From Candidatus Bathyarchaeota archaeon (GTDB lineage: Archaea > Thermoproteota > Bathyarchaeia > Bathyarchaeales > Bathycorpusculaceae), in assembly GCA_013388895.1 (NCBI GenBank), contig JACAEK010000054.1, positions 1 through 41,100 on the forward strand: a stretch of DNA of 41,100 bases. The letters are read 5' to 3'. Under the pieces are notes generated by a model that was not told the DNA's origin, searched no databases, and saw nothing but the letters and a program-made list of their open reading frames with translations. Below, piece after piece: positions 8,266 through 14,385 of this stretch (positions within the stretch are counted from its first letter, which is position 1; every line of letters begins with the position of its first letter). The translations under genes were made by a program, and so were the position numbers.

Positions 8266-8871
8266 CTAAGTCGTCAAGCCAAGCTTCTGATAGATTCTCT
8301 GCTTGCCTTCTTCAACCTTCTTTTGAACGTCTGTGAATATGTTGTTTCCATGCGAATCAATAGCAACAGCTAACGGACCGAACTCTTCAACCTCGAAAAT
8401 CCACATGGCTTCTGGTGTTCCCAAATCCAGCCACTCAACGCCCCTGACATTTTTTATTGCTCTAGCGGCCAGTATTGCGGCGCCTCCAGTGAAAGCTCCG
8501 TAAACAGCACCATACTTTGCAATGGCATCAGTCGTTTTTTTGCCCATGCCGCCTTTTCCAATCACGACTCGCACTTTGAAGTTTTTTATGAATTCATCCT
8601 CGAAAATGTCCATCCTCGTGCTTGTCGTAGGGCCTGCGGCAACAGCAGTCCATTTGTCTCCTTCCTTGCTAACCACTGGTCCGCAGTGAAAAACCGCCAA
8701 GCCTTCCAGATTCAGTGGTAAGGGTTTTCCTTGCTTGAAAAATTCTAACGCTCTTCTGTGCGCTTGGTCTCTAGCAGTCACTATTGTTCCAGTCACGTAG
8801 AGCACGTCGTTAACCTTAAGCTTGCGAATATCTTCCTCTGATATTGGGGTTTTAAACTTGTAAACAGCCAT
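8266..8871 (-). CDS. Class I fumarate hydratase, beta subunit
   Basis: A 201-residue protein matching the C-terminal domain of oxygen-sensitive class I fumarases, which interconvert fumarate and malate. Seen: the start KTPISEEDIRKLKVNDVLYV, then GTIVTARDQAHRRA, the FHCGPVV and GPTTSTRMD segments, and IGKGGMGKKT, all conserved in this domain. The alpha subunit lies just upstream and the two genes, 15 bases apart, clearly form an operon. A GGTGA ribosome site precedes the ATG. Split subunits are normal in archaea. Context points to the tricarboxylic acid or reductive C4 steps. Confidence 0.9.
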   Translation of the reverse strand: MAVYKFKTPISEEDIRKLKVNDVLYVTGTIVTARDQAHRRALEFFKQGKPLPLNLEGLAVFHCGPVVSKEGDKWTAVAAGPTTSTRMDIFEDEFIKNFKVRVVIGKGGMGKKTTDAIAKYGAVYGAFTGGAAILAARAIKNVRGVEWLDLGTPEAMWIFEVEEFGPLAVAIDSHGNNIFTDVQKKVEEGKQRIYQKLGLTT

Positions 8872-8886
8872 CTTTCATTCACCTCA

Positions 8887-9768
8887 TCACTTTATTTTAT
8901 GTGTTAAATATTCAATTGTTCCATCTGCGTTGATTCTTGCAGAAGCTCTTCTGGCAGCCCAACAATTGAAGGCGACAGCTGCAGGAAAAGATGCTGGGTG
9001 CCTAAACGCATAGTCCACATGCACGCCTAAAACCGTAGTCTTCCCACCTAAGCCCATCGGTCCAATTCCAGTCATGTTGGCAGCCTCAAAAATATCTCGT
9101 TCTAACTTTGCAATTTCTGGGTTTGGATTAGATTCGTTTAGCGGTTTTAGCAGCGTTTTCTTGGCGAGTTTTATGGATATGTCTGCTCCGCCTCCAATTG
9201 CCATGCCCAGAATGGTTGGCGGACAGGGCTGTGCTCCAGCCTTTATCACAGCGTCAATGACAAATTTTTTCAGTCCGTTTATTCCTTCGCCTGGAACAAG
9301 CATTCCAGTGACGCAGACGTTTTCTGAACCTCCACCTTTTGTCATAGCAGTCAGCTCTATGCTGTTTCCGGGGACGATTTCCCAATGCAAGAACGGTATA
9401 TATCTTCCCGTGTTGTCTCCGCTGTTCTTCTGGGTGAAGGGGTCAACCGAATTCGGTCTTAACGGTATCTCTTTTGTGGCTTTTCGAGTGGCATTAATCA
9501 ATGCATTTTCGATTTTGTCCAAGTCCTTTGCTTCTGAGCCTGCTTTAACATAGAATATTATTGTGCCAGTATCTTGGCATACAGGTGCTTTATATTTTTC
9601 AGCGAGTTCAACGTTATCCAAAATTGCCTTCAATTGCGTCTTTCCAGTATCGCTTGTCTCCTCTGCATAAGCCTTCTTTAATGCTTGCTTAACATCATCG
9701 GGTAAGTATATTACTGCCTGCTTCAGAAGGTTAAAAGCAACATCTTCCACAATTTTTCCTATGTCCAA
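8887..9768 (-). CDS. Class I fumarate hydratase, alpha subunit
   Basis: A 293-residue protein, the N-terminal iron-sulfur domain of class I fumarase. The three cluster cysteines are visible in CQDTGT, ENVCVTGM and QPCPPTILG; FTQKNSGDNTG is a conserved substrate-side loop. The enzyme is a hydro-lyase for fumarate/malate with a catalytic 4Fe-4S cluster. The start is TTG at 9768 with GGAG eight bases upstream. It is cotranscribed with the beta subunit. A tartrate dehydratase, which shares both domains, is the alternative reading, but fumarase is far more common in archaea. Confidence 0.9.
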   Translation of the reverse strand: MDIGKIVEDVAFNLLKQAVIYLPDDVKQALKKAYAEETSDTGKTQLKAILDNVELAEKYKAPVCQDTGTIIFYVKAGSEAKDLDKIENALINATRKATKEIPLRPNSVDPFTQKNSGDNTGRYIPFLHWEIVPGNSIELTAMTKGGGSENVCVTGMLVPGEGINGLKKFVIDAVIKAGAQPCPPTILGMAIGGGADISIKLAKKTLLKPLNESNPNPEIAKLERDIFEAANMTGIGPMGLGGKTTVLGVHVDYAFRHPASFPAAVAFNCWAARRASARINADGTIEYLTHKIK

Positions 9769-9970: not shown

Positions 9971-9979
9971 AAATGTTTG

Positions 9980-10990
9980 ATGACTGAAGAAGAACCTGAG
10001 GAAAGTGCTGCCAAGAAGAAATATGCGTTTTTGGAAGACCTTCCTGGAATCGGTCCAGCCACCGCTCAAAAACTGGAGGAGTTGGGCTTTCACACCGTTG
10101 AATCGTTGGCTATGGCAACAGCCAAGGAATTGGAGCCAGCAGGCATCAGCGAAAAAAAAGCCTTTGCAGTGATTGATGCTGCGCGATCCTCAATTAGCGT
10201 CTCTTTTGTCCGAGCGGATGAACTTCTTAAAATGCGTCAGAGTGTTTTGCGTTTAACAACTGGTAGCAAAGCCTTGGACAGAATTCTGGATGGCGGGTTA
10301 GAGACGCAGACTATAACTGAGTTTTATGGTGAGTATGGAAGTGGAAAAAGCCAAATCTGCCACGAGTTATGCGTGAATGTTCAGTTGCCACCTGAAAAAG
10401 GCGGATTGGGTGGTGCCGCATTATATGTTGACACGGAAAATACTTTTAGAACTGAACGAATTGTGCAAATGTCTAAACATTTATGCCTTGACCCCGAGCA
10501 GGTTGCCAAGAACATTATCTACGCTGAAGCCTACACTTCTGATCATCAAATGTTTCTTTTAGATAATGCTGATGAAGTGATTAAGGAAAACAATGTTAAA
10601 CTTATCATTATCGATTCTTTAACTGCTCATTTCAGAAGCGAATACATTGGGCGTGAAATGCTGGCTTCTCGTCAACAGAGACTGAACAAGCACATGCACA
10701 GGATTATTCGCTTGGCTAGAGCTTTCAACGCTGTTGCGGTTGTGACGAATCAAGTTATGGCTAAACCAGACGTGTTTTTCGGCGACGCAGTGCATCCCAT
10801 TGGTGGTCATATTGTTGGGCATACGAGCCACACGCGGGTTTATCTGCGGCGAGCTTCGCATGGTCCAGTGCGTATCGGTCGGTTGGTTTCAAGCCCGTAT
10901 TTGCCTGAAGGAGAGGAAATATTTAAAATAACCGAGAACGGCATAGAGGATGTTTCCGAAGAAGAAAAAACGAAGTCTCGTGGGCGTTAA
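9980..10990 (+). CDS. radA: DNA recombinase RadA
   Basis: Archaeal RecA/Rad51 recombinase of 336 residues, which forms nucleoprotein filaments on single-stranded DNA and drives strand exchange in homologous recombination. Residues 17-70 are the N-terminal helix-hairpin-helix domain (LPGIGPATAQKL, AGISEKKA). A polymerisation-linker phenylalanine lies in VSFVRADELL. Walker A is GEYGSGKS (117-124) and Walker B is KLIIIDS (about 206-213). MLASRQQRLNKHMHRI and VAVVTNQVMAKPD are the DNA-binding loop neighbourhood. Length and order are standard, so this is the RadA recombinase and not the shorter RadB. A small PIP-box gene starts two bases after the stop. Confidence 0.97.
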   Translation: MTEEEPEESAAKKKYAFLEDLPGIGPATAQKLEELGFHTVESLAMATAKELEPAGISEKKAFAVIDAARSSISVSFVRADELLKMRQSVLRLTTGSKALDRILDGGLETQTITEFYGEYGSGKSQICHELCVNVQLPPEKGGLGGAALYVDTENTFRTERIVQMSKHLCLDPEQVAKNIIYAEAYTSDHQMFLLDNADEVIKENNVKLIIIDSLTAHFRSEYIGREMLASRQQRLNKHMHRIIRLARAFNAVAVVTNQVMAKPDVFFGDAVHPIGGHIVGHTSHTRVYLRRASHGPVRIGRLVSSPYLPEGEEIFKITENGIEDVSEEEKTKSRGR

Positions 10991-10992
10991 GG

Positions 10993-11454
10993 ATGCCTGT
11001 TCCCTCAGCCTTAGTGGCGCGGTACTTTCAGCTTTTAGTTTATAGACAGTTCACTGAAGCTGAACGGGAATTGGAAAGGCTTAAGCAGAAAATGCACAAG
11101 ACCGAGTGGAACCGTGGCTATTTCAGAGCTTTATATGGGATGATGCTTGCACGACGCTCAAATAATAACGATTCTTACACGTTCTTCTCAAAACTGGATC
11201 TGAACGATAAAACAGTGTTGCACAATTATAAGCGCGAGTTTTCGGAACATGTGAAGAACAGGCTTCATGGTGACTTTGACCGCGGGTTCTTCTCAGCTTG
11301 GTCTGACTGTATGCGCGTGCTCAACAGAATGGACTTGTCAAACGTTCCAGCAACCAATGGTGCATCGACCGCATTAGCGAAAAAACTTGAGACAGTAGAA
11401 GCAGACAAAAACCAAGCTACTATTCAGGATTTTTTTGAAGAAGAAAAAGCGTAG
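10993..11454 (+). CDS. Small helical protein with C-terminal PIP box, linked to radA
   Basis: I do not recognise the family of this 153-residue, mainly helical protein. It starts two bases after radA, so the pair is almost surely one transcript. The body is rich in aromatic and charged residues (RYFQLLVYRQFTEAERELE, RGYFRALYGMML, RGFFSAWSDCMRVL). Around residue 120 it becomes loose and Ala/Thr-rich, then ends with QATIQDFFEEE. QATIQDFF fits the PCNA-interacting peptide consensus Q-x-x-hydrophobic-x-x-aromatic-aromatic exactly, at the extreme C-terminus where such motifs usually sit. I infer a sliding-clamp-bound accessory factor in recombination or replication-coupled repair. Confidence 0.75.
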   Translation: MPVPSALVARYFQLLVYRQFTEAERELERLKQKMHKTEWNRGYFRALYGMMLARRSNNNDSYTFFSKLDLNDKTVLHNYKREFSEHVKNRLHGDFDRGFFSAWSDCMRVLNRMDLSNVPATNGASTALAKKLETVEADKNQATIQDFFEEEKA

Positions 11455-11455
11455 A

Positions 11456-12223
11456 TTAAGGCAGGCCGATAATTAAGGTGTATAAGAGAACCAAAGAAAC
11501 CAGCCAAGTGAAAAAGTATATGCCTATTCCCATCGTGAAAATCTTCTGGGGCTTTTCAACTTCGCGCGCGAAGACGTGTTTTAGGGCGTAGTAGGAAACT
11601 AGGTAAACTATCAGGGCTATTGATATGCTGTTCACCAATTTTGCTGGAATTGGCGGAACATACTCCGTTTGTCTAATTTCAAAGTTGTCTCCATACACGT
11701 CTCCTGAACCATTAACCACCTTAAACACGATTTCACAGCTTCTCACCCCGCTTGGAGCATCCACGACTTCGCCTATAGGTGACCATTGCAGATAGCTACC
11801 AGCCGGTATGGAAGTCTGATTTTCTTTTAAAAGATTGAGTCCTTGTGAATCTGAAAACCATCTAATTGATAAGAAGAAGCTGTCCTTAGTAATGTTTCCT
11901 CGAAAGAAACCCACAATTTGGAATGGGTAAGTGTACGTGTTTCTTCCTTGAATTTCTGTCACCTTGCTTTTCCACTCGGCGCTGGAATTTGTAACATTTA
12001 TTCTTATGCTTCTAATGCCTGATCTAGCGTAAGTGGTGCTCCATTCTGCGCCGTCTCCTGTTAGAAACCAGTCTTGAGGTGTCGTTGTTCCTAATTCGAC
12101 GGAAGGATTTGAGACCAAATTCTTAGAAACAAGGTCAGTTGCCATGACGTAGCCTATGCATATGAATGCGGCGATTATACCAAACATGATTCTGAGGTAG
12201 TATATTTTTACCAGCGGTCTCAT
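11456..12223 (-). CDS. Membrane protein with carbohydrate-binding-like ectodomain
   Basis: A 255-residue protein. An N-terminal signal or anchor helix lies at about residues 9-28. The ectodomain (about 35-190) begins with LVSNPSVELGTTTPQDWF and continues with ARSGIRSIRINVTNSS; this is the usual opening of galactose-binding-like, jelly-roll carbohydrate-binding modules. Two C-terminal transmembrane helices follow (about 195-215 and 230-252). The membrane-tethered form suggests it binds glycans at the cell surface. It is convergent with the radA-linked gene, whose stop lies only one base away. The ligand is unknown. Confidence 0.6.
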   Translation of the reverse strand: MRPLVKIYYLRIMFGIIAAFICIGYVMATDLVSKNLVSNPSVELGTTTPQDWFLTGDGAEWSTTYARSGIRSIRINVTNSSAEWKSKVTEIQGRNTYTYPFQIVGFFRGNITKDSFFLSIRWFSDSQGLNLLKENQTSIPAGSYLQWSPIGEVVDAPSGVRSCEIVFKVVNGSGDVYGDNFEIRQTEYVPPIPAKLVNSISIALIVYLVSYYALKHVFAREVEKPQKIFTMGIGIYFFTWLVSLVLLYTLIIGLP

Positions 12224-12324: not shown

Positions 12325-14385
12325 TTGCAGAAGAAGGAGTTTACAAGTTTTGACGTAGCCGCTATTGTGCGCGAGTTAAAAGAAACCACAATGGATTCTC
12401 GTGTCAGCAACATCTACCAGTCAGATTCCAAAACCCTGATCTTTAAACTGCATAAACCCGACAAGCCCACATTTGGATTGGTCATGGAAGCAGGCAAGCG
12501 ACTACATCTGACAGCTTATACTGTGGAGAAACCCGCAGTGCCTCCAGCGTTCTGTATGGCTTTGCGGAAATATTTACGAAACGGCTATCTAACAAACATT
12601 GAGCAACCCGAGTTTGAACGTATCGTAGTTTTTTTGTTTAAAACTAAGATGGGCATCTTGCGGCTTATTTTGGAGCTTTTCGGCGATGGCAACTTCATCT
12701 TGGTTAGCGAAAAGTGTGAAATCCTGCAAGCTTTGATTTATAAGCGCATGCGAGACCGAAACATTCTCCGTGAAGAAAAATTTGTTTTCGCTCCATCTAG
12801 TGGAAAGAACCCGTATAACGTTAGCGGAGCCGAGTTGCAGGATGGATTAAGAAGTTTTGGCGATGTTGAGGTTGTGCGAGCTCTTGCAAGGTTTCTAAGC
12901 ATCGGCGGCATTCACGCGGAAGAAGTTTTGTTAAGGGCTGGCATAGACAAGACTAAATCTTGTAATACATTAACCACTGCAGACTTTGATGCCATTTTTG
13001 ATAGTTTACATTCTCTGCTCTCTCAAGCTTCTAAGGATAAGCTGGAACCTAGCATTGTTTTGGATGAATCAGGAAAATTTATCGACGTTGTGCCTTTCAA
13101 GCTTAAGCGCTACGAAGGTTTTCCGCTTAAACCTCTTGCAAGTTTCAGCGAAGCCTTAGACGAGTTTTACGTTAGGGTCTCAGCTGTTGAAAAAGCGAAG
13201 GCAGTGACCAGCGTGAAGGTTGAAGAGTTGAAACGTGAAGCGGAAAGGCTTAAGCGAATCATTGTTGACCAAGAGAAGACTTTGGTTGATGCGGAAGCGA
13301 AGGCAGACAGAGATAGGCGTATTGGAGACGTGATTTATGCACATGTTGGCGAATTGCAGGAGTTGTTAGATAGGTTTCTAAACGCCAAAAGAAATGGTAA
13401 AAGCTGGGGTCAGATTGTTTCTGAGGTTTTGACTGAGAAGAAAGCCAGTGTCAAGCCAAGCATGTTCTTTGAGTCTTTTGACGCCAAAAGTCTGATAGTG
13501 GAAGTCCGTTTAGATGACTTGCGGTTTGGTCTGGATTTTGAAAGAAGCCTGTACGATTCTGCAGGAGAGTTTTACATACGTGGTAAGCGAGCTAGGCAAA
13601 AGCTGGAAGGTGCCAAAACTGCTTTAGAGGAAACCCGAAAGAAACTTGCCGAAGTTGAAGCCAAAATGCGGGCTGCTGAAGCCCTAGAACATGCTGCACC
13701 AACAGAAGTAATGGAAGAAGTCACTAAACGTAAAATCAAGCATAAGGAATGGTTTGAGCGTTTTAGGTGGTTTGTTTCTTCTGACGACTTCTTGGTGGTG
13801 GCTGGCAAGGACGCAGTTAGTAACGAAGTCTTAGTGAAAAAACATACTGAACCAAACGACATAGTATTTCACGCTGATGTTGTTGGCGCACCTTTCGTAG
13901 TGGTTAAAACGGAAGGTAAAGAGCCTACTGAACAGTGCTTACGTGAAGCTGGAGAGTTTGCAGCCGCCTTTAGCCGCGGTTGGCGTGAAGGCTTCGGCTC
14001 CGTAGACGTCTATTGGATCAAGCCTGACCAACTAAGCAAGAGTGGGCCTTCTGGTGAATACGTGCCGCATGGAGGATTTGTCGTTAGTGGCAAGCGGAAT
14101 TGGATACGAAACGTTCCGCTTAGAGTAGCCATAGGTGTTGCGGTGAACGCGGAAGAAGGCGTGATTCGCATCGGTGGTGGTCCCGTGGACTCTGTAAAGA
14201 CGAAGACTAATGTCTACGTTGTCGTTGTGCCTGGAGACCAAAACAGCAAAGAACTGCTAAAGCAAGTCTTAAGAATGTTAGTCGCAAAAATACCCAAAGA
14301 ACAACGAGAAACAATCTTGAAGGCTTCAACTGAACAGATAAGAGAATTCATCCCATACAATAAAGGCAGAGCCATTCAAGAGTGA
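12325..14385 (+). CDS. Archaeal NEMF/RqcH homologue (NFACT family)
   Basis: A 686-residue protein of the NEMF/Rqc2/RqcH family (also called fibronectin-binding-like). These bind the large ribosomal subunit carrying a stalled peptidyl-tRNA and recruit tRNA to add C-terminal residues for quality control. Seen: NFACT-N at about 1-200 (FTSFDVAAIVREL start, FKTKMGILRLILELFGDGN), a helix-hairpin-helix region (IGGIHAEEVLLRAGID), a long coiled coil at about 285-345 and 410-465, and the NFACT-R domain at about 475-600 (HKEWFERFRWFVSSDDFLVV, HADVVGAPFVVVK). The start is TTG 12325; no in-frame ATG lies nearby. A repeated intergenic element follows the stop. Confidence 0.92.
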   Translation: MQKKEFTSFDVAAIVRELKETTMDSRVSNIYQSDSKTLIFKLHKPDKPTFGLVMEAGKRLHLTAYTVEKPAVPPAFCMALRKYLRNGYLTNIEQPEFERIVVFLFKTKMGILRLILELFGDGNFILVSEKCEILQALIYKRMRDRNILREEKFVFAPSSGKNPYNVSGAELQDGLRSFGDVEVVRALARFLSIGGIHAEEVLLRAGIDKTKSCNTLTTADFDAIFDSLHSLLSQASKDKLEPSIVLDESGKFIDVVPFKLKRYEGFPLKPLASFSEALDEFYVRVSAVEKAKAVTSVKVEELKREAERLKRIIVDQEKTLVDAEAKADRDRRIGDVIYAHVGELQELLDRFLNAKRNGKSWGQIVSEVLTEKKASVKPSMFFESFDAKSLIVEVRLDDLRFGLDFERSLYDSAGEFYIRGKRARQKLEGAKTALEETRKKLAEVEAKMRAAEALEHAAPTEVMEEVTKRKIKHKEWFERFRWFVSSDDFLVVAGKDAVSNEVLVKKHTEPNDIVFHADVVGAPFVVVKTEGKEPTEQCLREAGEFAAAFSRGWREGFGSVDVYWIKPDQLSKSGPSGEYVPHGGFVVSGKRNWIRNVPLRVAIGVAVNAEEGVIRIGGGPVDSVKTKTNVYVVVVPGDQNSKELLKQVLRMLVAKIPKEQRETILKASTEQIREFIPYNKGRAIQE

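Follow-up and report, generated by a model that had tools for sequence, protein, structure and literature searches.

P1, a 153-residue protein encoded directly behind radA in a Bathyarchaeia genome, combines a helical body of no recognized family with a C-terminal PIP box. Our best reading, held with moderate confidence, makes P1 an accessory protein of RadA with, in this branch, a tether to PCNA. Gene coupling and co-occurrence with RadA make it likely that P1 acts on this recombinase, and the C-terminal motif makes it highly probable that P1 binds PCNA through its PIP box.

The radA–P1 locus

P1 is encoded at positions 10,993–11,454 of the window, the whole 41,100-nucleotide stretch of DNA analyzed, from an ATG start (open reading frame list and translation). 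The features referred to below are as follows.

8266..8871, minus strand: fumarate hydratase C-terminal subunit, flank of the conserved block (PF05683)
8887..9768, minus strand: fumarate hydratase alpha-type subunit, flank of the conserved block (PF05681)
9977..10990, plus strand: radA, conserved upstream partner gene, TAA stop
10993..11454, plus strand: P1, radA-coupled protein, 153 residues
10993..11328, plus strand: helical body of P1, residues 1–112 (AlphaFold and alignments)
11329..11412, plus strand: variable and disordered linker of P1, residues 113–140 (low pLDDT, high column entropy)
11413..11436, plus strand: C-terminal PIP box of P1, QATIQDFF, residues 141–148 (motif and conservation)
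11456..12223, minus strand: EMC6-like small membrane protein, convergent conserved neighbor with an extra domain here (tblastn homology across loci)
12325..14385, plus strand: NFACT/RqcH-type protein, conserved neighbor (PF05833, 240 bits, and synteny)
C-terminal tail peptide of P1, including Q141 and F147/F148: DKNQATIQDFFEEEKA

An earlier note on this DNA had placed the P1 gene two bases 3' of radA, which is exact, as radA ends at 10,990 and P1 starts at 10,993. It had also named the upstream gene correctly, since the product passes TIGR02236 with 438.6 bits (cut-off 361); its Walker A motif, GEYGSGKSQ, is intact. The radA gene is listed with a TTG start, directly followed by an ATG at 9980. 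The window copy of the EMC6-like protein has no Pfam match, and a short relative of it passes Pfam EMC6.

P1 is a helical protein without recognized relatives

No relative of P1 scores over the cut-off in Pfam, NCBIfam or PHROG, the PDB contains no sequence relative, two Foldseek searches of the PDB returned no fold match to the body below E = 1, and our literature searches found no account of the family. The earlier note, which could not place P1 in a known family, is borne out by these blanks. Its description of a helical body agrees with the AlphaFold prediction of P1 alone, in which residues 4–113 form a confident body of five main helices (residues 5–16, 20–33, 38–55, 73–88 and 94–112; pLDDT about 90 in the helices), residues 122–138 fall below a pLDDT of 50 and a short helix lies within the PIP box at residues 145–148. 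The model of a relative that has no PIP box (L137) matches that of P1, with five main helices and a confident body. Alignments identify G42, A46, L47, G49, D96, G98, F100 and A102 as conserved body residues.

Matches to ANAPC8 (TPR) occur in 8 of the 38 P1-family members (best 4.6e-4), and Tah1 (TPR) is among the weak Foldseek matches (E of 4.3 and 8.5). These TPR-type similarities suggest helical hairpins, without establishing membership in the TPR family. We considered and rejected FxxA mimicry as a way for the body to bind RadA: the two [FY]xxA pairs, at residues 43–46 and 99–102, lie inside model helices and are therefore poor BRC-like RadA-binding motifs.

The family occurs in 223 of 257 Bathyarchaeia genomes, including 116 of the 120 that are near-complete, and a 38-sequence profile, with hits in 140 of 398 sampled genomes, extends it to other classes of the phylum. 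Named relatives of the host genome are Candidatus Bathyarchaeota and Bathycorpusculum MAGs.

The PIP box is conserved in some lineages

QATIQDFF, recognized by the earlier note as a PIP-box fit at the P1 C-terminus, is present at residues 141–148 (nucleotides 11,413–11,436), followed by EEEKA, and matches the consensus Qxx[ILM]xx[aromatic/hydrophobic]2. Searching the 1.58-Mb genome with a degenerate DNA pattern for Q[AST]T[IL]xxFF gives two hits, this one and a 31-residue frame within another gene. The genome encodes PCNA, and its FEN1 ends in KTTLEKWFG, a motif of the same type, so PIP-type motifs are in use in this host.

Among close relatives (f1), 67 of 69 distinct tails carry the motif, against 0.1 expected from shuffled tails, with the consensus D-K-[SN]-Q-[AV]-T-[IM]-x-x-F-[LF]. 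The two exceptions are a tail with an apparent 1-nt frameshift, behind which GQATIENFLRK is intact (L008), and one cut off by a contig end (L115). Positional entropy is 0.0 bits for the glutamine, 0.19 for the phenylalanine and 0.49 for the threonine, whereas the preceding linker, 19–39 residues long and variable in sequence, mostly scores 1.3–3.5 bits. More distant members carry the motif in 16 of 73 cases, against 0.3 expected by shuffling. PIP boxes are found in families f1, f2, f7 and f24 and in parts of f4 and f6, with such forms in the distant families as QTDIFRFL (f2), QTTIVNY-type (f7), QTTLDKF (f24) and QRTLFEF.

P1 homologues of the remaining families have no PIP box, and many of them are still adjacent to radA. 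Homologues lacking the QxxhxxFF end, which the earlier note had named as counting against its interpretation, therefore exist, and that interpretation is supported in part: conservation of the PIP box across related archaea stands for f1 but not for many other families. Since P1 without a PIP box occurs in many lineages, clamp binding, as predicted from the motif, is a lineage-specific feature of P1 and not its defining property. A shuttling PIP motif on the RadA tail, as in the PolB2 mutasomes, was rejected, as none of 161 RadA tails carries the motif.

Other tail types were also observed. Sequences that look like degenerate PIP boxes devoid of aromatic residues are present in an f10 tail (QATLDKP, L176) and similarly in the L187 frame (QATLDQS). 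Members of f35 and f50 have a conserved PxPH[KR], mostly LPTPH, at the end of the body in place of the PIP tail (L141, L143, L159, L160, L162, L163 and L165–L167), possibly a different docking motif.

P1 is coupled to radA within a larger conserved block

Among the 165 loci with at least 1.2 kb of upstream flank, 149 have radA directly upstream of P1 on the same strand, as do all 80 of the named Bathyarchaeota-type loci. Most gaps between the two genes fall within −4 to +8 nt, spacings of +1 to +3 being commonest, with the maximum at +2, and overlaps are frequent, a distribution expected under translational coupling. Among the phylum-level P1 loci retrieved, eleven lie away from radA, in addition to three zinc-finger paralogues; conservation of the linkage across related archaea, which the earlier note had proposed to check, thus holds at most loci but not at these eleven.

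The conserved block consists, in order, of the fumarate hydratase genes, radA–P1, the convergent EMC6-like gene and NFACT, the last being downstream of P1 in 98 of the 127 loci with enough flank. Where radA lies elsewhere (f30, f32, f47, f52, f56, f62 and one f50 genome), P1 keeps at least NFACT; near radA–P1, NFACT was not found in genus g43 of f6, in some f50 genomes, in f10 or in f25. Because the block breaks on either side depending on the lineage, adjacency alone does not single out RadA, and the conserved EMC6-like/NFACT neighborhood weakens the case for a RadA role. Among the block neighbors, only radA is co-directional and coupled with P1.

The EMC6-like and NFACT genes form a pair that is conserved in several classes of the phylum, even after loss of radA from the locus. 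A RadA–P1 fusion in a single 436-residue frame (G068 C82, L187) was left out of the analysis, as the RadA C-terminus is missing; this frame is probably a deletion or a misassembly.

P1 tracks one RadA clade

As clade-A genomes we counted those in which the best RadA scores highly as a relative of the window RadA. In the 323 phylum genomes outside the class, a first profile found P1 in 40 of the 52 clade-A genomes, and a direct look with a broader profile downstream of radA, made on the clade-A side only, raised this count to 47 of 52 (seven more from ten of the twelve negatives). P1 is present in 26 of the 271 outside-class genomes without a high-scoring clade-A RadA, and 8 of these 26 seem to have a clade-A RadA that is split. 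All of these co-occurrence counts ignore shared ancestry.

Nearly all P1-linked RadAs group into a single clade of the RadA tree (support 0.946). This clade also takes in the unlinked RadAs of f32, f47 and f52, where P1 is kept, and the second RadAs, together with those of most genomes without P1, are placed outside it. Exceptions occur in both directions: one P1-linked RadA lies outside the clade (L152, f59), f30, f56, f62 and f66 have P1 without a clade-A RadA, and a clade-A RadA without P1 is seen in f41 and in one f51 genome. Within f9, two genomes without P1 (G181, G184) carry just the other type of RadA; as radA and P1 are adjacent, one deletion could explain this joint loss. Judged from the tree and the counts, P1 goes with a single RadA clade, also in genomes that have the two genes apart. 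Ancestrally, the unit was presumably a helical protein coupled to this clade, with a PIP tail that some Bathyarchaeia either acquired or retained.

Two or three RadA copies from distinct clades are present in many of these archaea (L192–L222), and only one of the clades is associated with P1. The P1 family also offers a way to approach a RadA clade that in some genomes occurs together with a second, distinct RadA. Several RadA genes match in two pieces or within a much longer frame (G406 C3:328922-330862, L165, L170 and G022 C33); these split or extended genes suggest inteins.

Proposed function and alternative explanations

We propose that radA and P1 would be read from one putative transcript and, through translational coupling, would yield co-produced proteins. 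The helical body (about residues 4–113) would act on RadA or on DNA bound by RadA, and in this way influence how the RadA filament is assembled or removed. In this Bathyarchaeia branch, a flexible linker of 20–40 residues would allow the PIP box to dock in the inter-domain pocket of PCNA, and this tether would hold the RadA modulator at clamp-bearing DNA, such as stalled forks or polymerase-extended D-loops. P1 may thus link RadA recombination to replication.

P1 could instead be an independent PCNA-binding factor, such as a clamp inhibitor or an adaptor or loader of another enzyme, that shares the radA transcript for co-regulation only and has no contact with RadA. No motif of P1 other than the PIP box can be interpreted functionally, and P1 survives away from radA in f30, f32, f56 and others. 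We nevertheless consider this explanation unlikely: members that have no PIP box are linked to radA to the same extent, so that the linkage conserves the body and not the tail, and P1 follows clade-A RadA even where unlinked. A further possibility, a plain RadA accessory protein in which the PIP match is due to chance or is a motif for something other than PCNA, draws on the frequency of chance PIP matches in single sequences and on the many homologues that have none. It is hard to reconcile with a motif retained in 67 of 69 close relatives on a variable linker, and with the presence of comparable motifs elsewhere in the P1 family (QTDIFRFL, QTTLDKF, QRTLFEF), and we regard it as very improbable.

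A role alongside the EMC6-like protein and NFACT in the quality control of ribosomes or membrane proteins, with the PIP-like tail as a recent side function, would account for the frequency of NFACT downstream and for the P1–NFACT order, which most lineages keep after the departure of radA. However, the EMC6-like gene is convergent and so lies outside the operon of P1, whereas radA and P1 are co-directional and overlap or nearly so, and the lineages noted above keep radA–P1 with no NFACT found nearby. The PCNA motif and the zinc-finger paralogue described below also point to DNA, and we consider this role quite unlikely. A PCNA-tethered RadA accessory protein, which would work in the manner of Srs2 and PARI and has the gene position of RecX without a recognized relationship to any of the three, remains our preferred reading, within which we slightly prefer a putative regulator or anti-recombinase over a loader, by analogy with Srs2, PARI and RecX.

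Comparison with known systems

Srs2 in yeast and PARI in vertebrates are recruited by PCNA and remove RAD51 (PMC6551702). P1 resembles both in pairing a PCNA-interaction element with a predicted action on the RAD51/RadA recombinase, but they are helicases or helicase-like, whereas P1 is a helical protein of 153 residues with a predicted RadA contact. Both are also much larger proteins than P1. No UvrD-type helicase or helicase-like domain is present in P1, which has no Pfam match over the cut-off.

In mycobacteria, recX overlaps recA (PMC3062782). Like RecX, P1 is a small helical protein whose gene lies directly downstream of the recombinase gene and often overlaps it; RecX is bacterial, whereas P1 is archaeal. 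RecX Pfam domains are absent from the matches listed at E ≤ 1 for P1 or the 38 members, a listing that covers 25 of 35 families, and RecX is not known to carry a clamp motif.

The iRadA/PolB2 mutasomes carry clamp motifs and include PPB2 (arCOG07300), a three-helix protein with an MGRT N-terminus that is linked to the inactive iRadA and to PolB2 (PMC11791011). P1 is similarly a small helical protein beside a RadA homologue, in a set with a clamp motif. It differs in its five main helices and its N-terminus, MPVPSALV, and the neighboring RadA, unlike iRadA, has an intact Walker A motif and passes TIGR02236. We saw no polB2 gene adjacent to P1, the neighbors being the EMC6-like gene and NFACT.

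Archaeal PIP-box clients, among them Pab0431 (PMC3820547), have a C-terminal QxxhxxFF/FL/WF tail (consensus in PMC3504372). Such clients (FEN1, RFC-L, Pab0431) are enzymes or loaders, whereas P1 has no recognized catalytic domain. A mediator role has been proposed for RadB in Haloferax (PMC5480776), RadA–primase contacts have been reported in Pyrococcus (PMC3820547) and the coupling of RadA recombination to replication forks in archaea is little understood. If our reading is true, a PCNA-tagged protein co-encoded with RadA would provide a ready-made physical link from recombination to replication, and P1 occurs throughout an archaeal group that ranks among the most abundant of the uncultured ones. 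More tentatively, and with slightly more doubt than confidence, we suggest that P1 proteins form a new, structurally unmatched family of regulators of the archaeal recombinase. The family would date back to the ancestor of Bathyarchaeia and related classes and would have co-evolved with a single RadA clade, and in some lineages a PIP tail would connect recombination directly to the clamp, a convergent prokaryotic counterpart of the Srs2/PARI logic.

A zinc-finger paralogue

In genus g43, three genomes, of which two are almost identical, encode a second P1 member that is unlinked to radA and begins with a C2H2-type zinc finger (CxxC...HxxxxH, below Pfam cut-offs). It is found at L190:8471-8908 (minus strand) and also in L055, L056, L057 and L189. 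This paralogue fits a putative nucleic-acid context for the P1 body. A Cas1-like fragment (PF01867, 34 bits) lies close to the paralogue in L190, L056 and L057, in at least two genomes.
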